In this document: positions 12,165 through 61,497 of the stretch, piece after piece
How positions within the stretch are numbered: position 1 is the stretch's first letter
Layout: each line of letters begins with the position of its first letter
Assembly: GCF_964019385.1 (NCBI RefSeq)
Contig: NC_088645.1
Location: 20,467,158 to 20,531,157, forward strand
Source of the DNA: Sycon ciliatum
Taxonomy: Eukaryota > Porifera > Calcarea > Leucosolenida > Sycettidae
Direction of reading: 5' to 3'
DNA length: 64,000 nucleotides
Notes under the pieces: generated by a model
Database searches by the model: none
Told to the model about the DNA's origin: nothing
What the model saw: the letters and a program-made list of their open reading frames with translations, nothing else
Made by a program: the position numbers and the translations under genes

Positions 12165-13239
12165 ATGGCCACCAATGAGCATGTCGACCTGGCCCTTCTG
12201 ACGTTTGACTGCCTCCAAAATCTGGCCACCCGGAACGGCATCTCGAAATCTGATTCTCTCTCGCGGCCAGACCTGGTAGGAGCACTCCGGAAGGAGGGGA
12301 TTGGGTCCCACCCCATCCTGGAAGGTATGACTGGTATAGGAGATATAACGACTGCCTTAGCCTCATTGTCCACCACAATAATGGATTTAAACAAGGAGAT
12401 GATGGCAACAAGGGGGGGGGGCAGAGACGATGAAATTGCGTCCTTGAAACTTGAGATTCAACAACTCAGGCGGGAAATTGCTGACCTAAGAGACAATAGC
12501 GTACACACCGCAGTACACACACAGCATGCCATGCCACGCGTACACGGGAGCCACACGACCTCTGGCAGCACAGCACAGTACAGCGACGTACTAGCAGGAA
12601 CATCCCAACAACCTGCACGTGCACCCGCTGGACCCTCCAGCTCAAGCCCGCCGGTACACACCCTGTACGGTACACACGCACATGCTGGCAGTGCCAGCCA
12701 GCCCAGTGCACACACTGTACAGCAACCTAGCACTGTCGACTCCGTCTCACAACGTACGCACAGCCCTCAACCCGAATGGCAGGACGTCCAAGCCAGGCGT
12801 TTGCGCAGGGCTCAGCGTTCAAGCACACCCGTAGAAGGCAATACTAATATGCAGACATCCTTGATCACCAAGCGCGAGGAGAAGTCCCGCTACACAAACG
12901 AAACACCCCCCCGCCGGTGGCCATGTTGCTGAGTTGACGGCAGCGCCCCGGGCAAAGCGTAAGGTCTTTTACATAGGGAACGTGCAACCTCACTGCTCCG
13001 CATCATCTATTGCTAAATGGTGCTCCGATCATGGGGTCGACATAGTGCAATGCGTCGTCTATGCATCAGCCTACTTCAGGACTGCATATGCACGCGTGAC
13101 TGTGGAGGCAGCCGACGAGGAGAAAGTAGCCAATAAGGCATTCTGGCCTGACATGCTTTCCCACACCATCCGACCCTGGCGCTTCAAAAGTGACAGCTTT
13201 GGCACCAGCACAAACGATGTCGCAACAGCTAGCCAATGA
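12165..13239 (+). pseudogene. LINE ORF1 protein (coiled coil plus RRM-like), one frameshift
   Basis: ORF1 proteins bind the element RNA and act as nucleic-acid chaperones. The first frame (12,165-12,932, 255 codons) has an N-terminal helical part, a coiled-coil-like segment at about residues 58-110 (LKLEIQQLRREIADLRD), and a long S/T/P/Q/H-rich linker. In the second frame, up to 13,239, the sequence reads KRKVFYIGNVQPHCSASSIA and FRTAYARVTVEAADEEKV, resembling the RNP strands of an RRM-like fold as in other LINE ORF1 proteins. The frames join at a run of seven Cs at 12,906-12,912, so one base gained or lost there explains the break. A sequencing error in the run or a programmed shift are alternatives. 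The stop overlaps the ORF2 start as ATGA, which fits coupled translation. Confidence 0.75.
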
Positions 13240-16184
13240 TGGCCAATTCCCACCTAAATCCACTGGCTCGGCCCTACTACCCGCGCTGCCAGGAAAAGCT
13301 AAACTTGTTCTCCATTAACTGCCGCTCCGTTCTCAACAAATCCGCAGAATTGTCGGCTATTGCCGAGATCCACAGACCTGACATTATCTGCCTCAGTGAA
13401 ACCTGGTTAGCTCCAAGTGTCGCTCTTAGTATCTCTGGATACACCACCTTTCGGCGTGATCGACCTCCTAACGAAAACAAGTCTGGTACCGCCTCCAGGG
13501 GATATGGTGGAGTCGCTATTCTCGTTCGTGATCATCGTTTCAGTTGTATCCAACTTCGCAACGACCTCAGTCGCCCTACCTGTGAAACAGTGTGGGTGGA
13601 GCTTAAACCTTGTTCCGGCTCCCCAAAGCCTATTATTGTCTGTAGTGCCTATCGCCCACCCTCTGCCAAAAGCACAGAGATAAATCACTTCTGTAACATG
13701 CTCACCGATGCCCTGGTCACTATCCCCCTGTCCTCGTACCACGTCATACTGACTGGAGACTTCAACTGTAAGCACCAGCACTGGTGCCCAACTGACTCAA
13801 CGTCCCCCGCGGGAGCTGCGCTCTACCGCCACCTCACCTGCTTCGGACTAGAGCAGCTTGTGAATACCCCAACGCACACAACACCTGCAGGGACCCAGTC
13901 GTGCTTAGACCTTCTCTTCGTCAACAACCCCCAGCTTGCAACGGATATTAACACGACTTGCGCTCTTGGATCCTCGGATCATCTGACCGTGTCATGTCGG
14001 TTCGAGCTCTCACCATCGCCTGGCCAACATCTGCAGCAAGCACCACCAAAACATTTCCCTTACCGCTATCGTCATGTCCCCTCTCACTGCTGGGACTCTC
14101 TTAATTCCGATCTCTCTCCTTGTGACTGGTCATTTCTACGCCCAGGCAATTCCCCAACTGTTGACGACGCAGTCGATCGATTTTCAATCGTCCTGGAACA
14201 AACCTTCCAGCACCACCTCGCTGATTTTTCCACCCATTCTTGTCGGTCAAACACACGCACATCGTCTGTGACATCCAATCCACCCTGGGTGTCGACTGTC
14301 CTCGTATCTGCGGTGAAACGTAAACGAGACCTCTTCAGTGTCAGCCGAAAATTTCCAACACCTGTCAATATGGAGGCCTACCGAGTTCAACGCAACTTTG
14401 TCAAATACCTATCCCGTAAAACCTACCGCTCTTACATCAGCTCCCTCTCTGCAACAATCTCATCACCCAATCGTCCTTCTCTCTATCAGTTCATTCGCAC
14501 CGAGCGTCCCAGTGTCTCTCGCGCCCCAATCCAGTGCTTGATTGATCCTGATGGCAATCGTCAGTCTGAGGCAAAGTCCATTGCGGACACTCTGAACAAA
14601 CAGTTTGTCTCTCCCGGCCTTCCCGACGATCCGAACTGGGTTATCCCGCCCCTGCACCCAGCTCCAGAGCTGCGCGCTCCACTTCTGGAGGTCTTTACAA
14701 CAACTGGTGTGGTCCGCAAACAACTGAAACGTCTTAAGAGCTGCAAGTCTCCTGGAAAAGACGGTATTCCAAATGAAGTCCTTAAACTGCTGGTGCCTTC
14801 CTTGTCGTATCCCCTGTGCTTGCTCTTCAACTTGTCATATCGTGCAGGAGTCTTCCCATCTGCGTGGAAATCTGCTATTGTTGTCCCGATCTTTAAGAAA
14901 GGACAACGCTCCCAAGCTGTTAATTACAGGCCCATCTCCCTCCTACCAACTATATCCAAGGTCTGTGAACGCATCTTCTATGAATCTCTCTACCACCATG
15001 TCACCCCTGCCCTCTCCTCTGCACAATCCGGCTTCTGTCGTGGCGACTCAACTACTTTGCAATTGACACGCTTAATCCAGGATATTTACGGACATCGTGA
15101 CCTGAAGAAGCATGTAGGTCTTGTCTTTTTTGATCTGTCAAAAGCGTTTGATACAGTCTGGCATCGAGGCCTACTTGCAAAGCTTGAGTACATTTTTCTA
15201 GTACGTGGTACAGCTCTGCAGTGGCTGTCGTCATATTTGTCGTCCCGTCATCAAACTGTCCGTGTCTCTGCTTCCTTGTCCGATCCTTTACCTGTAGTGT
15301 CTGGTGTTCCACAGGGGTCCATACTGGGTCCACTCCTTTTCCTAACTTATGTGAACGATCTGCCCTCTCTAGTTCCAGACGTCAGCCTTTTTGCTGATGA
15401 CACTGCACTGTTGTGCTCTGACAGCTCGCCGTCCAACCTCGTTACCTCCATGCAGACCGGCATTAACTCCACCATAGCATGGATGGAAGCTTGGAAGCTG
15501 AGGCCCAACATCGCGAAGACCGAAGCAATGTTCATCAGCCCATCGCCGCCTACTCAGCCGTTGCACTTTCCAGGAGCCAATGCTAACGTTAAAATTGTTC
15601 ATGAACACAAACACCTTGGTGTTATATTCGACAGCCATATGTCCTGGTCCCCACAGGTCCAGTCAGTATGCAAGCGAGCTAGCTCCTCCCTTGGCATGTT
15701 GCAACCTCACTGCCACCATTTAAATGACCATTGCCGAAAATTGTTCTTTACGTCGTATATTCTACCTATATTTGATTACTGTGACACAGCGTGGTGCGGT
15801 CAGTCTCAGGCCCTTGTTCAAACTCTGGAAATACACCAGCGTCTGCTTCTAAAAATCCTGTTTCGCAAAAATCAAACATTCTCCTCCCAACGTCTCTACA
15901 GTTTAGCTTCAGTATCTCCCCTCTTAGAGCGACACCAGCAACATCTTTGCATCCTTGTACACATGATCTTATTAGACCTGGCTCCAAAACACTTTGCTAA
16001 GTATAACTGGTTTGTGTCCACCAGATCAACACGTCATTCCTTTTCATTACCCCGTGCCAATACCTCCCTGTTTCTGAAATCTCCTATCTTCTCTGCGTAC
16101 ACTCTCTGGTCTTCCCTGCCAACTAGCCTTAAAGCATGCACAGACATTAAGGAGTTCAAGCTTCAGCTTCTTCGTCCTAAATAA
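13236..16184 (+). CDS. LINE ORF2: APE-type endonuclease and reverse transcriptase
   Basis: A 982-aa polyprotein that nicks target DNA and copies the element RNA by target-primed reverse transcription. The endonuclease occupies about residues 20-255, with SETW at 54-57, GDFN at 174-177 and SSDH at 246-249, all catalytic positions intact. The reverse transcriptase follows: YRPISLLPTISKVCERI, AQSGFCRGDST, FFDLSKAFD with the motif A aspartate at 633, GVPQGSILGPLLF, and FADD at 719-722. The C-terminal region includes HLGVIFDSHMSW and FDYCDTAWCGQ. No RNase H or CCHC knuckle is seen. The whole frame is open. The start is the ATG overlapping the ORF1 stop. Motif wording fits the Jockey/CR1/L2 group; a finer assignment needs a phylogeny. 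Confidence 0.93.
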   Translation: MMANSHLNPLARPYYPRCQEKLNLFSINCRSVLNKSAELSAIAEIHRPDIICLSETWLAPSVALSISGYTTFRRDRPPNENKSGTASRGYGGVAILVRDHRFSCIQLRNDLSRPTCETVWVELKPCSGSPKPIIVCSAYRPPSAKSTEINHFCNMLTDALVTIPLSSYHVILTGDFNCKHQHWCPTDSTSPAGAALYRHLTCFGLEQLVNTPTHTTPAGTQSCLDLLFVNNPQLATDINTTCALGSSDHLTVSCRFELSPSPGQHLQQAPPKHFPYRYRHVPSHCWDSLNSDLSPCDWSFLRPGNSPTVDDAVDRFSIVLEQTFQHHLADFSTHSCRSNTRTSSVTSNPPWVSTVLVSAVKRKRDLFSVSRKFPTPVNMEAYRVQRNFVKYLSRKTYRSYISSLSATISSPNRPSLYQFIRTERPSVSRAPIQCLIDPDGNRQSEAKSIADTLNKQFVSPGLPDDPNWVIPPLHPAPELRAPLLEVFTTTGVVRKQLKRLKSCKSPGKDGIPNEVLKLLVPSLSYPLCLLFNLSYRAGVFPSAWKSAIVVPIFKKGQRSQAVNYRPISLLPTISKVCERIFYESLYHHVTPALSSAQSGFCRGDSTTLQLTRLIQDIYGHRDLKKHVGLVFFDLSKAFDTVWHRGLLAKLEYIFLVRGTALQWLSSYLSSRHQTVRVSASLSDPLPVVSGVPQGSILGPLLFLTYVNDLPSLVPDVSLFADDTALLCSDSSPSNLVTSMQTGINSTIAWMEAWKLRPNIAKTEAMFISPSPPTQPLHFPGANANVKIVHEHKHLGVIFDSHMSWSPQVQSVCKRASSSLGMLQPHCHHLNDHCRKLFFTSYILPIFDYCDTAWCGQSQALVQTLEIHQRLLLKILFRKNQTFSSQRLYSLASVSPLLERHQQHLCILVHMILLDLAPKHFAKYNWFVSTRSTRHSFSLPRANTSLFLKSPIFSAYTLWSSLPTSLKACTDIKEFKLQLLRPK

Positions 16185-32225: not shown

Positions 32226-32812
32226 GCGTCAACACATTCAGGGTAAGCATGTGCAGCCGAAGCACAACAATCCTTCCAGATAACACACCGATGTAGAAGG
32301 CGTCGCTGAAGAACGGTTTGGCCTGATTACAGCGATAATTGATATTATCAAACACCTGAGTGTAAATAGTACGGCGATATCGCGAAGGGATTGTACCAAT
32401 CTAGAACACGGGGAATAGCAGAGAACAGAGAGTCTGTTAGCATACGATAAATATCGCACGCAAAGTCCTAATCACAAACGTCTGTAGCAGTTGTGTTAGA
32501 AGAAAAGATTCAGACATGTGTAGATATGTTTCTGAAAGCGTTCACTGACCGTCCACACGCGATGGGCAAGCCTTTTTATTCTCGTCAACTTCTCGAGGTC
32601 ACGCTCGAGCTGGTCCTGAAGACAAGATGGACAAGCATGTAGAACACAGGTCAATAAAGTCATACACCGTCATACACTGCCATACACCGTCATACACTGT
32701 CATACACATTTTTGCAAACGATTGAAACCACTTACACATACATTGGCGCGTGCACGCAAACACATGCATCCACACACATAATAATATTATCACAATGGAG
32801 GAACAAATCATC

Positions 32813-32890
32813 AGTCACACCACCGGGACTCGAACCAGGGACCTTGCTATTCACGAGCAATACTCTAACCAACTGAGCTACAGTGTGACT
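32813..32890 (-). tRNA. tRNA-like sequence (SINE head or pseudogene), copy A
   Basis: On the minus strand: 8-bp acceptor-like stem AGTCACAC/GTGTGACT, A box TAGCTCAGTTGGTTAGAG, a TTGCT/AGCAA anticodon stem with loop CGTGAAT, and B box GGTTCGAGTCC. The loop lacks U at position 33, so no anticodon can be assigned. It is embedded in a duplicated repeat, so it is best read as a tRNA-derived SINE part. Confidence 0.6.
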
Positions 32891-36824: not shown

Positions 36825-37181
36825 TATTTTTGTTATTATTATAATTTGTCTGTAGCAGTTGTGTTAGAAGAAAAGATTCAGACACGTGTAAAAATGTTTC
36901 TGAAAGCGTTCACTGACCGTCCACACTTGCTTGGCAAGCCCTTCGTCTCTCTTCAACATCTCGATGTCACCCCGGAGCTGTAACTGAAGACAAGATGGAC
37001 AAGCATGTAGACCACAGGTCAATAAAGTCATACACCGTCATACACTGCCATACACCGTCATACACTGTCATACACATTTTTGCAAACGATTGAAACCACT
37101 TACACATACATTGGCGCGTGCACGCAAACACATGCATCCACACGCATAATAATTATTATCACAATGGAGGAACAAATCATC

Positions 37182-37259
37182 AGTCACACCACCGGGAGTC
37201 GAACCAGGGACCTTGCTATTCACGAGCAATACTCTAACCAACTGAGCTACAGTGTGACT
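37182..37259 (-). tRNA. tRNA-like sequence, copy B
   Basis: Same structure as the copy at 32,813-32,890, with one substitution noticed (GGGAGTCG for GGGACTCG) that touches the B box. This supports a decaying SINE rather than a functional tRNA gene. Confidence 0.6.
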
Positions 37260-40496: not shown

Positions 40497-42499
40497 TGTG
40501 TAAGTATTAGTCGGATACTGCAAGTTTCTACTGGACAAGAGTTTGAGTGCGGGTGATTGACTTCCAGGCAATGACCTGCCTATACACGGTTGTATACATG
40601 TTGTACATGTTCGGTATACCGGTACTCCTTCTACGGAGAGTTGTATTTGTTCAAGCATTCCACTCTACATCATGCTATACGTGAACTGGATGTGTACATA
40701 TGCGTAGAGCAGTCGTGAAAACCTAGTACCGAGCGTACCGGTTATGCATGTAGAGCGTTTTCAAGGTTATACCAACGGTCACTTTTTGGGGTCAAGTGCG
40801 AGAAATTCTTGAATCGCTAGTGAACAGGCGAAACCCAGTTCACGTTCATTTTGTATGGGAATGGATACGTGGAGGTGAAAGAAGCAGTATAATGGCGCTC
40901 CACTTGTTATCCGACACTCGTGTTGAGTAAGAGCGCTTGCCAGGAAGGACCTTCCATGGCTTGGGCGAAAATGAAGAAGATTCAGAATTGATCCAAGCGC
41001 TGGTGGAGCCAAACTTTTCATATTTCGTATACTTTCCATACGTATTTTCAATCTCGATGACTTTGTATTGCACAACATGGTGTATATTCTGTGTTTTGCG
41101 TGTATACACCAGATTGGTGTATCGCTTGTGCTGATCCGACTCGCACTGCACTGAACTATCCTGGTTTTTAACTCATGTTGGTAGCCTGTGCGACTATGTT
41201 TGGGATATTCCACTGTCATAATGGGATAAAATTCAAAGACAGGGCGACGAAACGGAGCAGTTATGATTATATAATACATTAATGTGGTGGCATTTAAGTG
41301 AGGTGTTGATAATAATTTCTATGACTGCATAGTATTACCTCCGAGATAGGACTATGCCTAAAACTAGGTTAGTGGTTAGTTTGTAAAAATCGGTGATTGT
41401 TTGGTAGAGATACAAGAAAAAGAGCATGTTATTTGAAGGTGAGTTAGTGTCTTACTTTACAGTGGGGTCACAAAGGGTTAATTAAAGGTCAATGGGTTTT
41501 CACTCATGTGCATGCTAGGTGTTGGCAATAGATTCACGCACTGGAGATTATTATTATTATTTTTTTTTTTTTGGGGTGCAAGCCTCTTTTATGGGCAAAA
41601 ATTAACACAATGTATTAAAATGCAATACAACATACACTGGAGAAGAAATCAGGAAAATAAAATATGAGCTCAAAAATGGAACGAAAAATAGCAAATAGAA
41701 TCAAAACTCACGATGGAATCAAACTCATGGTGGAAACTACAACCCAATAGACATCCTTAGCAAAAGTACGATAACGCTAACTTTTACGGTACTCACTCCC
41801 AGCCGTGACAAAAGACGTTATCGGATAACGGAAAAACGTTACAGAGCTCAAAATAACGGGCCGACGTTCGTTATGGAAATTCTGCAAAAAATGCAAAAAC
41901 TCGCATTGTTTTGTAACTGGCGGGAGATAAAAAGCACGTCGACGTGCAGATCGAGATGAGATCGAGAGTCAAGATTGCTTCCTCTTGTGACATTTAGCTT
42001 TTTGGCGAGTTTTGCCTTTCAGTTGACAATTTCTGCGTCCTCTGCTTCGTGCTGTTCTCCCTCTATCCCATCTGGGAAACAAAGGACCAGTTCCGCGGCA
42101 CTCCTGAGGAAGAAATTCATCGGCCTCTCCCAGACGTGCTGGAGCTGGAGAACCCTTACAGTCTTCGGTGCTGCGTTTAGGAAAGGGTTTCCAAGGACCT
42201 GGGAACAGCGAAAACTCATGTTCGCCGTGCTTTTGCTATTCCAGAGTAAAAGACCTCGCCAAGGTATTCTTTCGAAACGACAGCAAACTAATCCCTGGTT
42301 CAAAATTTTGAATTTCCCGCATCTGTTTCCACGAAAATTCATATCGCCATGGTTGTCACGACTACTTCGTCTCAACTATAACGTACTTTGTGCTAAGGGA
42401 AAAGTCAGCTTGAACGATCCGAAGTACGGAAAGGTTTGCGTTTACGTTAGCGTTTTTTTAGCTAAGGATATCTAATGAGTCGGAAAACCAACCACAGAA
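40497..42499. other. Intergenic, no recognisable gene
   Basis: Frames at 41,975-42,475 (+) and 42,019-42,375 (-) overlap each other and show no domain. A T/ATT tract lies at 41,548-41,571. A TACGGAAAGGTTTGCGTTTA stretch at 42,424 recurs in part near 50,702, so some of this is repeat. Confidence 0.4.
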
Positions 42500-42680
42500 T
42501 TAGATATTGGGAATAGAGTCAGACACAACAACAACCGAAATCAGTACACCAAAAATCTGTCCTACAAAAAACAAAGGAACAAGGAAAACAAGAAAGACGA
42601 AGTACAAAGAATCCCCAAAAAAGAGGGGAGAACGGGATGAAAGAGGACCGGAGAGCGGCAAACCCCAGGAGGACTTAGCG

Positions 42681-45600
42681 TCACGTAGTGGCGGGAATGC
42701 GGGCCTCCACAGAAACAGCATCCACATCCGCCGCCAGACCAGGTGCACGGAATGCACGGCGACTCCCACGAACCATCAGGACGGAGTCGCGGACAAGGCT
42801 GAAAGCCAGGTCCGTCCGCAGCTTTCCCATCACGAGGGGATAAGGCTGCGAGAGCTTGGTGGAGAGCTTCGTTCCGAGCAGCTTCAGGAACCGGGTGGCC
42901 TCCTTCGCCAGGGCACCAGCAGAAGACAGGACGATCGGGGTGAACGACGCGTGCTCAACTTCCCGGATCCGGGCACCGTATGCCGACTGCTTCTGACGCT
43001 CGTGCCATTGGAACACCTCAGCCAGCGGGCGAGATCGGTACGACTGTGCGTTGGGATAGAACACCCTTACATCAAAAAATGCATCAGTCTGTACCGACCA
43101 AAACCCCCTGGCCTTGATGTCCGGTCTGGCGTCTTCCGCAGTGAGCAGGGCAGGACCATGGTCAAACGTGCGGACCGTCGGTAGAGGTTGCAGCGGTGGC
43201 TCCAGCTGCACATCCTCAGACACTTGAGAAAGAAGTTGGCCCAGGTAGTTGCGGACATGGTTGTGCCGGTGGATGGGATAGCCGCCCAACTTGCAGATCA
43301 TTGCGTGGTCGATGGTGAACGGCCGGCTGCATGGACACTCGGTAGGTGAACCGTGGATGGTGAGGCCATAACGAATGCATAGGGCATCAACGAAGGACCG
43401 CCGGTCGAGGGAGTATCCATGCTCGCGAACAGGAAGACAAGTCAGCCATGCCCCTGTTCCCTTGGCCTGGAGGTGCTCCAGAAGCATTGGTGGTAGGGCC
43501 TCTGGACCAGCTGTCTGCAGGACGGTCTTGGTAGTCACAGACTGGGCTTGCTTGGCAGCAGCCTTGGCGGCGCAAATGGCTGCTGGGTCTACGCTGTAGA
43601 GGGAGGACTGGTCCGCGATAAGTTGCTGGAGACTGCTCGTGATGGACAGAGATGCTGTCCGCTGTTGCGAGGCAGCCTCAACTGGATTGAGCACTGCAAG
43701 GCCACCATGACGCACAGGCAGAGCAAGAAGGCTGCGTAGAGGGGCAGGGACGACTGGCACACCCAATAGAGCTGGCAACAAGACGGAGCGAAGAGAGGAC
43801 TCGAGAGCCTCGAAGACGTCTGGTGCACAGCTCGACACGCGCATCAGGAATGTCCAGCGGTGACGGTACCCAAAGACCAGTGCGGCATACACGGCTTGGG
43901 GCTCGGCCTCGGCCACGTTCGCCAGCTCACGCATCTCAGATGCCCAAGCCTCCACTCGAGCATTGCAAAATGTTGTCTTGAAGGCTTCCGAGCCCAGAGG
44001 AGCACCCAGGTAGGGGCGGCCCTCAGTAGTGATGTGGACATCGGTGTCGGCGAATGCAGCGTTGGCAGCATCGAGATGCTCGGGCTTGACAACCAGCCAA
44101 GTCTTGGCAGCGTTTGGATAGTAGCCGAATGCTGGGCCAAGTTGACAGATCTGGTCCCACCAGGTGCGAAGGCAGTGCAGCAGGCCAGCGGCTCCCGCGT
44201 CATCGGCATACCATAGCTGGATGGTCGAGGCGTCCGGTCGAGCAGCGGACGCACCGACGCCGGCTGGTCTCTCAGGCGATTCGCGGTCATGCACCGTGCC
44301 AGCTGGAGAGTCGTCCATAAGGGCGGTGGCGAGGGTAGTGACGAGTGGCGTAATGGCAATAGCGTAGAGGGGCATGGCTAGTGGGCAGCCTTGCGTGGTG
44401 CCTTCAGCAGACCAGATAACCGTACCGCTGACGTGGAGAGGTACTGTGCTGCGGTAAAGGTTTTTCGAAATTGTTGCTATTGATGGACATAGTAGGTGGA
44501 TGTTGTGGAGCATAGCTGCACGGTTCAGGGAGTTGAACGCGTTGGCAGCATCGACCAGGAGTGCTCCCTCTGTGTTGCTGCTGTCAAAGTGGCGACACAG
44601 GGCATGCGCAGCGGCCTCCGCCCCTCCCTCCTGCCCAGCACAGGTTTGAAGTGCCCCCGCGGCCTCAACAATGTCCTGACGGGTGATGCGGAGGACCACC
44701 TTGGCAATGAGGCGACGGAGGGTCTCCCCAATGCCGATCGGGCGCACACCAGGATTCTTATCCAGGGGCACAAGCCTTCCAGCCAGCAGCGGCGCCAAAG
44801 CACCCGAGTCGACAGGAGAGGTGGCGAGGCGCTTCGTCAGCATGGCTACAGCGTTGCATAGGCCCGTGGAAGATCTTCCAAATGAACAACACATCCTCCG
44901 CCAGGCATCTGCATCCAGCCCAGACACCCCTGCCGCACCAGACAGGGAAAGAGAGGTAGCCCGGACAAATGCAGCATTCACCGGTTCGAACAGCACGAGA
45001 TGCGTTGGGCGGCACGGACCCTGTAGCAGTACATCGGATGAGGGGCCATCCAAGTCCGGTGAAGGGTGTTTGGCTTTCAGAATATCTATGGTGGACTGGC
45101 CACCACCGCAGTCAGCCTGCAAGGGAAGGACGCCCCCCTTGCCTGAGGTGTGCAGGCAACGAATTGCTGCTTTCACTTTGCCCGCGAGCATGAGACGGGT
45201 AAAGCCTTTCACCGCTGCGTCATCAGACCGCTGGAGAGGACCAGATGGTAGGTGGTCTTGGATCTGCCGACCCTCGTGGAGCAGGGAAGTGATATCACCA
45301 TCTTTCCATAGTTGGAGTCGACGCTGCAAGCAGCGGACATGATCAGCAGCCTTTGATGTCCGGAAAGGTTTCTGCAGGAGAAGCGGCGGAAACACCATAG
45401 CAGCTTTCAGAGCAATGCGTTCCTGAGGTGTGTCAGGGGACAGGAGTTGCAGGAGACGAGCCTGCTCCTCCACGAACGCACAGCCTGCTTTTCCAGATGG
45501 TATTGCAAAAATGTTGCGGCGCCAGTTGACGACAACTTCTCTCGCGTGCTCCAGGGCTTGCTCAAACTGCGATGATGGGACGGAAGCCCAGGTGAACGGC

Positions 45601-46178
45601 TGGCAGTTTAGGGCTGGTGCAGCGTCAGGGAGTCGCTCAGGTGGCTGAGAGGCGTCCAAGTTCGCAAGCCGGTCAATGTCCTGGGATGAAATGGCAGAGT
45701 AGTCCAGGGCGTGCGCATCCTCAGTGCTGTGCGTACCGGAAAACGGCTGAGAATTCTCTTGGGAGTTTCGAACCTGGGGAGTTTGAGTGCCTGAGCCAGA
45801 AGCCGCAGCGGGGCATGAGGATGAAACAGACGTCTCCGCGGCAGCACCGCTGGGTTGTGAGGACGTGGTAGAAGGGTTTCCGCGACCATCGTGGCAGGAA
45901 GAGGAGGCCGATATTTGAGATACTCCTTGAACATTCGAATTTCGAGTTCTTGAATTTCGAGTATTCACGGCGGAGGGTACTGGGCATGATGAAGAGAAAG
46001 CCAGATGAGAGGCGGCAGCAGCGCTGCCGGCCGTCTGTGACGACGTTGAGCGACAGGAGTTACGACACGTTCCATGGCGATTGGCGGAGCAGTTAGTACA
46101 TTCACATTGACGTCCAGCTTTGGCGCATTTGCAGCCTGAACAGGTCGAGGCCTTTCCGCACGTGCAGCATGGCGGCAT
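42681..46178 (-). CDS. Reverse transcriptase with N-terminal CXC-like cluster and C-terminal CCHC/PD-D endonuclease
   Basis: A 1,165-aa protein, counted from the ATG opening MPPCCTCGK. Residues 4-40 hold a dense cysteine pattern (CCTCGKASTCSGCKCAKAGR then CECTNC and C-R-N), like the CXC zinc cluster of MSL2-type DNA-binding proteins. A disordered linker follows. The reverse transcriptase has GVRPIGIGETLRR, LLVDAANAFNS with the motif A aspartate at 543, GTTQGCPLAMPLYA, and YADD at 657-660. Near the end come C948-x-C950-x7-H958-x3-C962 and then RPD (D1020) with FFDVRV (D1036). This order is that of the CCHC and restriction-like endonuclease of R2/NeSL/CRE-group elements. There is no APE-type endonuclease, which fits. 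The first 153 codons of the longer open frame run into repeats, so 46,178 is preferred as the start. The frame is open throughout, suggesting recent activity. Confidence 0.82.
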   Translation of the reverse strand: MPPCCTCGKASTCSGCKCAKAGRQCECTNCSANRHGTCRNSCRSTSSQTAGSAAAASHLAFSSSCPVPSAVNTRNSRTRNSNVQGVSQISASSSCHDGRGNPSTTSSQPSGAAAETSVSSSCPAAASGSGTQTPQVRNSQENSQPFSGTHSTEDAHALDYSAISSQDIDRLANLDASQPPERLPDAAPALNCQPFTWASVPSSQFEQALEHAREVVVNWRRNIFAIPSGKAGCAFVEEQARLLQLLSPDTPQERIALKAAMVFPPLLLQKPFRTSKAADHVRCLQRRLQLWKDGDITSLLHEGRQIQDHLPSGPLQRSDDAAVKGFTRLMLAGKVKAAIRCLHTSGKGGVLPLQADCGGGQSTIDILKAKHPSPDLDGPSSDVLLQGPCRPTHLVLFEPVNAAFVRATSLSLSGAAGVSGLDADAWRRMCCSFGRSSTGLCNAVAMLTKRLATSPVDSGALAPLLAGRLVPLDKNPGVRPIGIGETLRRLIAKVVLRITRQDIVEAAGALQTCAGQEGGAEAAAHALCRHFDSSNTEGALLVDAANAFNSLNRAAMLHNIHLLCPSIATISKNLYRSTVPLHVSGTVIWSAEGTTQGCPLAMPLYAIAITPLVTTLATALMDDSPAGTVHDRESPERPAGVGASAARPDASTIQLWYADDAGAAGLLHCLRTWWDQICQLGPAFGYYPNAAKTWLVVKPEHLDAANAAFADTDVHITTEGRPYLGAPLGSEAFKTTFCNARVEAWASEMRELANVAEAEPQAVYAALVFGYRHRWTFLMRVSSCAPDVFEALESSLRSVLLPALLGVPVVPAPLRSLLALPVRHGGLAVLNPVEAASQQRTASLSITSSLQQLIADQSSLYSVDPAAICAAKAAAKQAQSVTTKTVLQTAGPEALPPMLLEHLQAKGTGAWLTCLPVREHGYSLDRRSFVDALCIRYGLTIHGSPTECPCSRPFTIDHAMICKLGGYPIHRHNHVRNYLGQLLSQVSEDVQLEPPLQPLPTVRTFDHGPALLTAEDARPDIKARGFWSVQTDAFFDVRVFYPNAQSYRSRPLAEVFQWHERQKQSAYGARIREVEHASFTPIVLSSAGALAKEATRFLKLLGTKLSTKLSQPYPLVMGKLRTDLAFSLVRDSVLMVRGSRRAFRAPGLAADVDAVSVEARIPATT

Positions 46179-46240
46179 AGCTATAATATTATTATTATCG
46201 TGCTCGGGTCGCCGCAGCCAGCGCCGACGGGGAGGACACC

Positions 46241-46332
46241 CCCGAGGAGGGCAGCGACCCCTCTGGCGTCGACTCTCCACGTCCCGAGGAGGGCAGCGAC
46301 CCTCCTGGCGTCGACTCTCCACGTCCCGATGG
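46241..46332. repeat. 42-bp tandem repeat, two copies plus start of a third
   Basis: CCCGAGGAGGGCAGCGACCC begins each unit and CTCTCCACGT ends it. It lies just upstream of the reverse transcriptase start. Tandem repeats are common in LINE 5' regions and may carry promoter activity; that role is inference. Confidence 0.9.
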
Positions 46333-46413
46333 CGACGGAGACGGAGACGAGACGGAGACGAAGAATTAATAGACATTATTATTATTATTGAACGGCCTCT
46401 GCTGGGATGACGA

Positions 46414-46486
46414 CTACACCATAGCTCAGTGGTTTGAGCATCGCTGGCTACAAGCGAGGGTCCCTGGTTCGAGTCCTGGTGGTGAC
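46414..46486 (+). tRNA. tRNA-like sequence, plus orientation
   Basis: A box TAGCTCAGTGGTTTGAGC, stem TCGCT/AGCGA around GGCTACA, and B box GGTTCGAGTCC. Position 33 is not U and the acceptor stem is imperfect. It is the inverted partner of the units that follow, centred on an ATT tract at 46,545-46,574. Confidence 0.55.
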
Positions 46487-46543
46487 AGTCAATTTTTTCT
46501 TCAGACTTTTCCCGTTTGTCTCTCTTTCCCTCAAACCAGTTAA

Positions 46544-46574
<31 letters not shown>

Positions 46575-46576
46575 TT

Positions 46577-47660
<1,084 letters not shown>

Positions 47661-58383: not shown

Positions 58384-60566
58384 ATGCCCTGCTGCCAGTG
58401 CCAGCTTACGGGGAAGTGTCAGCGATGTGCTTGCAAGGCTGCTGACACCCCATGTGTTGACTGCTACCTGAGTCGCAACAACCCATCAACCTGCAGAAAT
58501 AGCACTCCAGGCATTGGGACTGGGGCGTCCTGTGGCCACAGCACTGGTGTGGGTGACGGCGCTACATGTAGTTCCGGAACTCGCGATGCCAACAGCCAGG
58601 TGGATGGTGTAGTTGTCAACGGCATTACATCTCAGGCTGCCAGTCAGGATGGTCCCGTACACAGCGCAAATAGGTCTGGCGCCGACCTTCACCCAAGCGT
58701 GGATTGGCGCGATCAGCTCCCTGCCTGGTTGGGAAGAGTTTACCCAAGTAAGATTTCCACGCAACGTCGAAATCGCGCTGGAGCCCGGGATGCGACCTCA
58801 GCAGCGGCACCATCATCTTCACCAGCCAACACACAAAGCCAGGACATGCCACCGCTGGTTCCTACAGCGCCTCCAGTACACTTGGCGGTGAACCAGGACA
58901 ATGCTGAGTCTAGTCCCGCTCAGGAGAGCGCCAACTCCCGATTTGCTCCTACTCCTGGAGACGAACAGGAGATACTACCAGTGCAGGGCATGAGGCGAAA
59001 GGATCAGGGACAACTCTCCATGCCGTCGTGCTATGATGAGATCGTTCAGTGGCGGAAGCAGTTCTTTCGTATCCCGACGGGGTCCATTGGCAAGGCTTTT
59101 ATCGATCTATTAGTTGCAGAGCTTCGACGGTTCACTGACTCTGCTGGCACTGACTGCATCGCTCTCTACCGGTTCTCCGTGGTTCCTTCCCTGATGTTGC
59201 AGTCAACCCGTTGCAATAGCAAACCAAAGGAGAATACTCTGCATTTGCAGCGGCGATTGGCATTGTGGCAAGCGGGGAATTTGACGTCATTAATGAGCGA
59301 AGGCCGCTGCCTGCAAGACTTGCTGTTTCGGCCTCGTAAGGGAGGCCGCAAGCGAGGTCTGGAAGATGAGGCTCGCCACTTCTCCGACCTCATGTGCCAG
59401 GGCCGTGTGCATGATGCACTTAGATGCCTGGATCCAGTCAGACGTGGTGAAGCGGGTAGTGTGCTGAACATCAACGATACCGTACCTCTCCGGGATGGTT
59501 CCTCTATTCCTGTCAAAGAGGCATTACTGGACAAGCATCCGGAGGCTCGGCTACCACCTTCTGAAGCCATGCTGCTGCCTGGGGATGCCCCCGGTGTTGA
59601 AGGCATACGTTTCGATGGCCTCACTGCAGAGTTTCTGAAATCCGTCGCGATTCACTCGGAGGGATCTGCAGGTCCGTCTGGGATGGACTCAGCATGTTGG
59701 CGGAGGATGTGCTCCTTTTTTAAGGGGGCATCAACCAGTCTGTGGCAGGCTATTGCTGACCTCTCTCGTCTTCTTGCTACCCGTGTTCTTCCCGCTGAAG
59801 GCCTGGTGCCGTTCTGTCTTGCCGACTGATTTCCCTTTACAAGCAGCCTGGCGTACGCCCTATTGGCGTGGGCGAGGTGCTTAGGCGGATAGTATCGAAG
59901 GCTATTCTGCGAATTGCTTCCACTGACGTGGAGGCAGCCTGCGGACATCTTCAGAAATGCGCTGGATCACCAGGTGGCATTGAAGCAGCAGTGCATGCCA
60001 TGCAAGACATTTACAACGAATCGTCCACTGAGGGAGTGCTGTTGGTGAATGCCAGTAACGCATTCAACAGCATAAACCGACAGGCAGCTCTGCATAACGT
60101 TCAGCGCCTCTGTCTAGCACTATCCACCATTCTCCTGAACTTCTATCAGTCGGAGGCACGTCTGGTTGTTGCTGGTGGAGGAGAGATTTCGTCAAAGAAG
60201 GGAACTACCCAGGGAGACCCGCTGTCCATGGCATTTTATGCATTGGCCACACTCCCCATCATTCGGCATTTGCAGCAGCAACACAATGCCGTTAAGCAGA
60301 TTTGGCATGCGGATGACTCCAGTGGTGCTGGCAGGCTGAGAGCGATTCGAGACTGGTGGACAACAATCCAGGAACACGGTTGCCTGTATGGATATTTCAC
60401 CAATCCGGACAAAACCCTACTTCTCGTGAAGCTCGGATTTGAGGAGGAGGCTTCACATCTGTTTGAAGGCACCGGTGTCCGCATTGTCACCGGCAGCACT
60501 AAGTATCTGGGCTCATACATCGGGGAGCCTGATGATGTTGCCAGCAAAAGTGAGGAAGAGGGTTGA
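58384..60566 (+). pseudogene. Second CXC reverse transcriptase copy, frameshifted and 3'-truncated
   Basis: From ATG: MPCCQCQLTGKCQRCACKAA then CVDCYLS and TCRNS, the same cysteine cluster as the intact protein at 42.7-46.2 kb. A disordered linker and the shared palm lead (GPSGMDSACWRRMC here, GVSGLDADAWRRMC there) follow. A -1 frameshift near 59,820 joins to GVRPIGVGEVLRRIVSK. Motif A reads LLVNASNAFNS, with the catalytic aspartate changed to asparagine, and motif C reads HADD. GTTQGDPLSMAFYA is kept. The protein ends at 60,566 without the CCHC and endonuclease, where a LINE tail has inserted. It is a dead copy. Confidence 0.8.
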
Positions 60567-60753: not shown

Positions 60754-61497
60754 ATGAAGAAGTTCAAGGAATTTTGTGGATTGCGTCGCTGTGCAGGATC
60801 AATTGATGGGACCTTCATGCGCATTATAAAACCACTGAAGTATGGTGATACGTATTATTGCTAATAGAAGTATTCTTCTATTTTGATATTGGCGGTGGTT
60901 CATCAGAGCGGCCAATTTACGTACATTGATGCAGGACGAGCGGGCACGATGGGAGATGCCGCAACTTTCCACGCCAGTTGTTTGGAGCACAAAATCAATG
61001 CCAAGACATGGCTCACAATCCTTGAGCGTGGAGAGAATAGGAATGTCCTGAATGGTACGTACATACGCCCATACCTTGTCGGCGATGCTGCATTTCCATT
61101 AGCTCCGACAATGATGAAGTTTTTCTCTGAAAACCAGGCGCTGGAGCCCTACCAGCGCACCTTCAATTATCGGCGGATAAGAACAAGGAGAGTAGTGGAG
61201 CAAGCATTTGGGCGTCTGAAAGGCCGCTTCGCAATTTTGGACTCTTCAAACCTACGGGACCCAATATTTGCTGCTGATGTTCTTCTGGTATGCTGTGCAC
61301 TGCACAACGTCTGTGAAACCTTTGCGTCAAGGGAAGGTGAGAGCTGGTGCTGTGACCCACAAGAATATGGACGAGGTGCAAATGACTGCAACCAGTTCTG
61401 TTGTACGCGGGAAATTGACAGGGTTTATGCATACCCGTCGGCCTATCTGAAGGAAATATTAGTTTCAATACAACTGTTTTGTCTTTTGCCAATCTGA
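60754..61497 (+). pseudogene. PIF/Harbinger-type transposase (DDE) with two in-frame stops
   Basis: KEFCGLRRCAGSIDGTFMRI holds the first catalytic aspartate (GSIDGT). After two consecutive stops (60,862-60,867) the same frame continues: AVVHQSGQFTYIDAGRAGTM with GDAATFHAS, then YLVGDAAFPLAP (second aspartate), FNYRRIRTRRVVEQAFGRLK (the E of the DDE triad in VEQAFG) and LVCCALHNVCETF. This is the DDE superfamily 4 nuclease of HARBI1-like transposases. The N-terminal helix-turn-helix part is missing. A very short intron (GTATGG...TAATAG) removing the stops is possible but would be only about 28 bp, so nonsense mutation is preferred. Confidence 0.85.

Follow-up and report, generated by a model that had tools for sequence, protein, structure and literature searches.

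A 64,000-nucleotide stretch of the genome of the calcareous sponge Sycon ciliatum (contig NC_088645.1; hereafter the window, at its full length) holds a long minus-strand open reading frame (ORF) whose translation joins a dense N-terminal cluster of cysteines to a reverse transcriptase (RT), a zinc knuckle and the motifs of a restriction-like endonuclease (RLE). The locus raises the question of what kind of element this is, into what sequence it inserts and what the cysteine cluster contributes to that choice. We conclude, with a probability of roughly 80%, that the frame, together with its close genomic copies (family A), is a single-ORF, RLE-type non-LTR (long terminal repeat) retrotransposon, or LINE (long interspersed nuclear element), which uses target-primed reverse transcription to enter (AAT)n/(ATT)n microsatellites.

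Family A encodes a single protein and has apparently spread recently

The frame runs uninterrupted through 1,165 residues and a stop codon (Table 1), and its translation contains everything that the original prediction, made by a model from the letters alone, had read in it: the N-terminal cysteines, the RT motifs LVDAANAF, GTTQGCP and YADD, the knuckle C-x-C-x7-H-x3-C (C948-x-C950-x7-H958-x3-C962) and, further on, R-P-D1020-x15-D1036. The same frame stays open upstream as far as 46637, an extension that falls outside the element. From its N-terminus, the protein consists of the cysteine cluster with 10 cysteines and a low-complexity stretch, then, starting at about residue 210, a conserved region, followed by the RT motifs, the knuckle and the endonuclease motifs; this body plan of cluster, RT, knuckle and RLE motifs is common to all six families that we compared (see below). 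Judged by its motifs, the window frame is the protein of an RLE-type non-LTR retrotransposon, a class to which the single ORF and the 5′-truncated copies of family A also correspond.

In the genome (538.4 Mb, 313 contigs), at least 43 stretches match family A at 94–99% identity, most of them partial, with 40 of 9,835 candidates scored. Five copies, the window copy among them, have no internal stop and span all or nearly all of the protein: four cover residues 1–1165 and one residues 6–1165. Because near-identical genomic copies are many, the joining of the N-terminal cluster to the RT is no chance fusion but, as had been proposed, a trait of the family. Across the six pairs formed by the window copy, L002, L003 and L004, the ratio of nonsynonymous to synonymous change (dN/dS), a simple Nei-Gojobori count on few changes and without a significance test, is 0.20–0.44. 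We read this as the recent spread of a lineage probably kept mostly under selection, with single copies decaying. Family A is a real and apparently recently active LINE, one of many sister families in this genome.

Family A inserts into AAT/ATT microsatellites

To define the target, 20 fetched stretches with their flanks were used to map 24 copies or fragments of family A, including the window copy, and a junction was scored as positive if it held four or more AAT units, with 105-bp windows as background. (AAT)n is present at 17 of the 24 5′ junctions and at 18 of the 21 scorable 3′ junctions, the unscored ones being L019 (which reads N), L028b (cut at the locus end) and L026b (which has no end motif). 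The background is about 1–2%, with the repeat in 108 of 11,520 windows of the window sequence and in 85 of 3,820 from the ends of 16 loci. Genome-wide, the exact 21-base 3′ end of family A occurs 90 times on the plus strand and 69 times on the minus strand. At least 51 of the 90 plus-strand ends have (AAT)4 within 2–32 bases past the end, a lower bound because longer A runs are missed, and (ATT)4 follows 18 of the 90, counted without a check for overlap with the 51. On neither strand does (ATC)4 follow a family A end. Other minus-strand counts of following repeats contain overlapping matches and were not used.

Family A thus enters a particular simple repeat much more often than background would give, as a microsatellite-specific LINE does. 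The suggestion that the element may have its own target preference is therefore borne out by the junctions and by the genome-wide 3′ ends, and mapping genomic copies for shared flanks, which had been proposed as a check, revealed (AAT)n at most junctions on both sides. We regard the assignment of AAT/ATT microsatellites as the target as strong. The element's own RT might instead have produced the repeat as a tail, in the way that TAA repeats end the I element (PMC3747384, cited, like all sources below, from an excerpt), and at many 3′ ends an A-rich run does precede the repeat. This is very improbable, since the 17 copies counted above, some of them 5′-truncated (L018, L020, L028a), have (AAT)n on their 5′ side as well, the repeat past the 3′ end can be (ATT)n, and a sister family, G, behaves alike with ATC.

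The RT and endonuclease point to an RLE-type element

RVT_1 from Pfam matches all six families (best E 2.5e-12) and is the sole Pfam match, a weak one (E 0.006), on the window copy. When an RT-core profile was compared with the PDB, R2 proteins (9.7e-6 to 1.7e-5) ranked ahead of L1 (0.0039 to 0.008); the top matches, L1 and R2, are those of a non-LTR RT. With NCBIfam, one of the six family members matched group_II_RT_mat (9.9e-8), and no more specific match was found. Relatives outside the Sycon genome were absent from bacterial, archaeal and viral contigs, a search that says nothing about animals.

The published signature of RLE LINEs comprises LP before the knuckle, a CCHC knuckle of the form CX2-3CX7-8HX4C, RH, PD...D and K-x3-Y (PMC5678591). 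The six families match it in the LP upstream of the knuckle, in RH and in D...D; R971-H972, D1020, D1036 and K1063 are present in all six and Y1067 in five. These residues support the predicted RLE downstream of the RT, an assignment that we hold with moderate strength on motif evidence.

Several observations weigh against the interpretation of family A as an RLE-type LINE with a repeat-reading protein. In the endonuclease, the P of PD is found in one of six families, the window's own family A. The knuckle, although invariant in all six, is shorter than the published form by one residue at two spacings. With E values up to 10 allowed, the C-terminal profile had no match in the PDB, and a structure model of the whole protein, made from the window sequence with an alignment of 3 rows, was uninformative, with a predicted local distance difference test (pLDDT) score of 34.6; because of this missing PDB match and unusable model, the RLE fold is inferred from motifs. 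The whole-protein profile ranked L1 marginally first (3.3e-6, versus 8.6e-6 for R2). At the junctions, 7 of 24 5′ ends (L013, L014, L017, L022, L024, L026, L013b) and 3 of 21 3′ ends (L013, L017, L026) have no (AAT)4, L026 carrying (ATT)n in its place. The dN/dS ratio is 0.56–1.69 in pairs with L005 and 0.67–0.74 with L007, on few changes. Finally, none of these results links target choice to the cysteine cluster itself.

Sister families insert into other repeats

The original prediction had cited a second copy, at 58.4 kb of the window, as a member of the same family. This copy, which is real and retains the cluster, is a member of a different family (B): it is 29% identical to the window copy over the N-terminal half and 42% over the RT, and its frame is broken. 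No C-terminal part of this remnant was found (Table 1); elsewhere, its N-terminal half is matched over the full length at 92–94% identity in the best cases. With that half as the query, at least 100 matches were found (89 of 2,002 candidates scored), which we grouped into families ourselves, fetching one copy each of B–E and two of G. A further family lies near C3:2923053 among these matches. Close to the family B remnant, at 60883–61497 of the window, there is a HARBI1-like transposase (DDE_Tnp_4, E 5e-20).

Family G, which carries two cysteine clusters in tandem, gives the clearest comparison with family A. Of 20 further copies, 12 have their 5′ junction at the expected place, 11 of them with four or more ATC units, the other eight copies having a different sequence there (truncated or displaced) and being left out, and the ATC repeat is present at all 19 scorable 3′ junctions; the ATC background is 0 of 11,520 and 9 of 3,820 windows. 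Genome-wide, family G 3′ ends number 62 on the plus strand and 77 on the minus strand. (ATC)4 lies within 60 bases past 61 of the 62 plus-strand ends, and (AAT)4 past none of them, with one case on the minus strand. The search word used for G ends in TTCATC and so favours repeat-adjacent ends, while the copies picked by protein match are free of such bias. Families A and G exchange targets cleanly, because A ends never stand before (ATC)4 and none of the 62 plus-strand G ends stands before (AAT)4.

Family G ends are also clustered: 63 of the 100 ends listed (of 139) have another within 15 kb, and neighbouring pairs share the same orientation in 40 of 43 cases, as expected if the same arrays were hit repeatedly or had themselves multiplied. 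The (ATC)n arrays beside the G copies L046, L059, L060, L064 and L067 hold 3′ ends of another family (GCCCGTAAAAGAGGC type), opposite in orientation in the last four, so that several families share one array. The tails of family G (L055–L074) are often composed of TTCATCATCATC, poly-A and (TCA)n in that order, which would fit an RNA that had ended in copied target sequence ahead of polyadenylation.

In families B, C and D, targets are more loosely defined. By our own count, which excludes A runs and arrays with a Tandem Repeats Finder (TRF) score below 70, a tandem array adjoins one or both junctions in 3 of 6 copies of B, 5 of 7 of C (four of these five at the 5′ side alone) and 2 of 4 of D; a lenient comparison found an array of score 30 or more in 32 of up to 200 random 145-base pieces of the window, pieces near the element being skipped. 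The array units of B copies are 34 bp, (ATG)n and 11 bp, those of C copies 30–31 bp and (ATC)n, and those of D copies 43 and 25 bp. Direct repeats of 11–15 bp, read by eye, flank several other B–D copies, which occupy unique sites (L030, L031, L075/L095, L078/L098, L082/L102, L088/L108). For family E, there was no array at four scorable 5′ sides and an array at the single scorable 3′ side, fixed offsets having missed most junctions. Sister families with the same body plan insert into other tandem arrays or at loosely defined sites. By the count above, 10 of 17 copies of B, C and D lie in arrays, several of them unrelated, which could mean that the elements of these families go to tandem repeats or AT-rich open DNA of any kind and do not read the sequence. 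We consider this unlikely; for A and G, the dissociation between them argues against it, since no A end on either strand and none of the 62 plus-strand G ends stands before the repeat of the other family.

The cysteine cluster resembles CXC domains in part of its spacing

The original prediction proposed that a CXC domain, of the kind with which MSL2 binds DNA, had replaced the classical zinc fingers. Over the seven clusters of the families compared, the cysteines follow the pattern CC-x-C-x4-5-C-x2-3-C-x-C-x6-C, with a variable part and a late C-x-N after it. The first half is spaced like the CXC domains of LIN54 and MSL2 (C-x-C ... C-x-C-x6-C, in PDB letters). In contrast, the closing C-x2-C-x-C-x2-C of those domains is kept in full in none of the seven, so that the nine-cysteine spacing is not reproduced: its C-x-C-x2-C is missing in B–G and one cysteine short in A.

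Profile comparisons gave no significant similarity when the proposed check against CXC/MSL2 was run, and pairwise scores were mostly not significant. Pfam matched none of the seven clusters at E up to 10, and a cluster profile against the PDB returned two unrelated matches and no CXC chain. An HHalign comparison of the cluster with CXC gave a score that 17 of 200 column shuffles also reached. When sequences were compared in pairs, no more than 10 of 1,000 shuffles scored as high in 2 of 21 cases (the A cluster and the second G cluster, each with the first repeat of LIN54); for LIN54 with MSL2 the number was 3 of 1,000. An MSL2-type domain in place of the fingers thus finds no support in these four tests, and homology to MSL2/CXC was left as unproven. 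At the sequence level, "CXC" would describe part of a spacing, and likeness of spacing is what the data support.

That the cluster takes part in target recognition is accordingly a weak proposal. It could instead serve RNA binding, packaging or chromatin contact, with target choice residing in the endonuclease and linker, an explanation to which we give somewhat less than an even chance. The clusters of B and C are nearly alike, but the two families differ in where they insert, mainly at (ATC)n for C and in other arrays or at unique sites for B, as judged from few copies; against this, the N-terminal part of R2 carries most of its target-binding surface (PMC13188248).

A shared 3′ end and a possible insertion mechanism

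The element ends in GCCCGTAAAAGAGGC in families A–C and in one E copy, in a one-base variant in D and in GCCCAAAGAAGTGGC in G. All these termini consist of a GCC...GGC pair around nine bases, often with an A run next to it, and the 18-mer TTTGCCCGTAAAAGAGGC occurs 1,339 times in the genome (707 + 632), compared with 0 for the reversed control. We infer that this shared terminus may be the RNA 3′ end recognised by the protein.

What we observe directly is the ORF with its motifs, near-identical copies, 5′ truncation, tails and microsatellite flanks on both sides. By analogy with R2, where the N-terminal part binds the target, the RLE nicks and the RT extends (PMC13188248), repeat recognition, nicking and RNA copying may be arranged as follows. 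The protein would bind the 3′ GCC...GGC terminus of the element RNA, and the N-terminal region with the cysteine cluster would recognise the repeat, which is the weakest step. The C-terminal endonuclease would then nick one strand, and the RT would copy from the nick, often stopping early. Both the order of these steps and the reading of the repeat by the cluster are conjectural.

Microsatellite insertion by RLE LINEs is already known from Dong, Togen and some HERO families, and DongAg and DongBg are further cases (PMC3636483). The following elements were compared by description. Family A could belong without special status to one of two named clades, HERO and R4/Dong, both known for microsatellite-specific elements, and we put the chances of this at about even. 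Dong (R4 clade, Bombyx mori) is likewise an RLE LINE and was assayed with TAA repeats at its 5′ junction (PMC3774820); HERO, also of RLE LINEs, combines many non-specific families with some microsatellite-specific ones (PMC4640811), the same mix as here. On the other side, the excerpts on RLE LINEs contain no mention or description of an N-terminal cluster of this kind, which is a weak absence. Dong carries a self-cleaving ribozyme like that of hepatitis delta virus (HDV) at its 5′ end, whereas an HDV-like ribozyme had no Rfam match in family A (E up to 10) or in the sister families (E up to 5). Togen, a fish element near NeSL and HERO, is microsatellite-specific as well, but for (TG)n (PMC4640811). 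R2 shares with family A the single ORF, RT, zinc knuckle and RLE motifs, and an RT core that scored above L1; it differs in having one to three zinc fingers plus Myb and a 28S rDNA target (PMC13188248), where family A has the dense cysteine cluster and microsatellites.

Features of the window

The boundaries of the element were drawn from copies L009–L028 and the sequence itself (Table 1). The 725-bp insertion in its 3′ untranslated part is like a miniature inverted-repeat transposable element (MITE), and the other mapped family A copies do not have it.

Table 1. Coordinates of family A and family B features in the window
Feature	Position	Strand	Details
Whole element, family A copy	41573..46365	-	5′ end near 46365, 3′ end near 41573, then 13 A; copies L009–L028 and sequence
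5′ flanking target microsatellite	46375..46389	-	(AAT)5
42-bp direct repeat	46241..46329	-	2.1 copies, 5′ untranslated part
ORF, stop included	42681..46178	-	1165 aa, translation
N-terminal cysteine cluster	46065..46169	-	residues 4–38; cysteines compared across families
RT core	43989..44789	-	residues 464–730; RPI, LVDAANAF, GTTQGCP, YADD
Zinc knuckle C-x-C-x7-H-x3-C	43293..43337	-	residues 948–962; invariant in 6/6 families
Putative RLE motif region	42978..43268	-	residues 971–1067; RHN, D1020, D1036, K1063-x3-Y1067
Foreign insertion, 3′ untranslated part	41749..42473	-	imperfect terminal inverted repeats AGAYATCCTTAGC; 3-bp duplication ATT
3′-terminal motif	41582..41599	-	TTTGCCCATAAAAGAGGC, one base off the 18-mer common to sister families
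3′ flanking target microsatellite	41547..41561	-	(AAT)5; first two bases = last of the A run
Family B remnant	58384..60566	+	cysteine cluster, N-terminal half, part of RT; frame broken near 59811

Next to the element lie 3.5 near-identical 280-bp tandem units (98% matches) at 46567–47549, with an inverted unit at 46388–46523; they contain four tRNA-like matches, called tRNA-Pyl (CTA) by ARAGORN. We tried this repeat as a part of the element and rejected it, as it falls outside the boundaries and adjoins some other copies in either orientation.

Elsewhere, a second LINE, of the apurinic/apyrimidinic endonuclease (APE) type, occupies 12165–16184, with a 255-aa ORF that has only weak coiled-coil-type Pfam matches, followed by a 982-aa endonuclease/reverse transcriptase ORF. 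A tRNA-Ser with a 20-bp repeat occurs twice, at 32659–32887 and 37027–37256, about 4.37 kb apart, which suggests a local duplication. Between 20241 and 30050, minisatellites of 67–69 bp with ACAGATACGGG recur together with (ACAA)n arrays.

Implications for site choice in RLE LINEs

Since families A and G exchange targets and their proteins can be aligned, the residues behind site choice in RLE LINEs can be asked about directly. A tentative extension, which we think rather doubtful at present, is that these families form a superfamily of RLE LINEs, so far without a name, whose finger/Myb head has given way to a CXC-like cluster, either single or doubled. This cluster would be an evolvable reader of simple tandem repeats, and the sister families would have switched within one genome among AAT, ATC and longer minisatellite units while keeping the same body plan and 3′ RNA end. 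Microsatellites would be numerous and probably mostly harmless sites, so that the system bears on how LINEs and their hosts coexist, and also on the origin of nested insertions in microsatellites.

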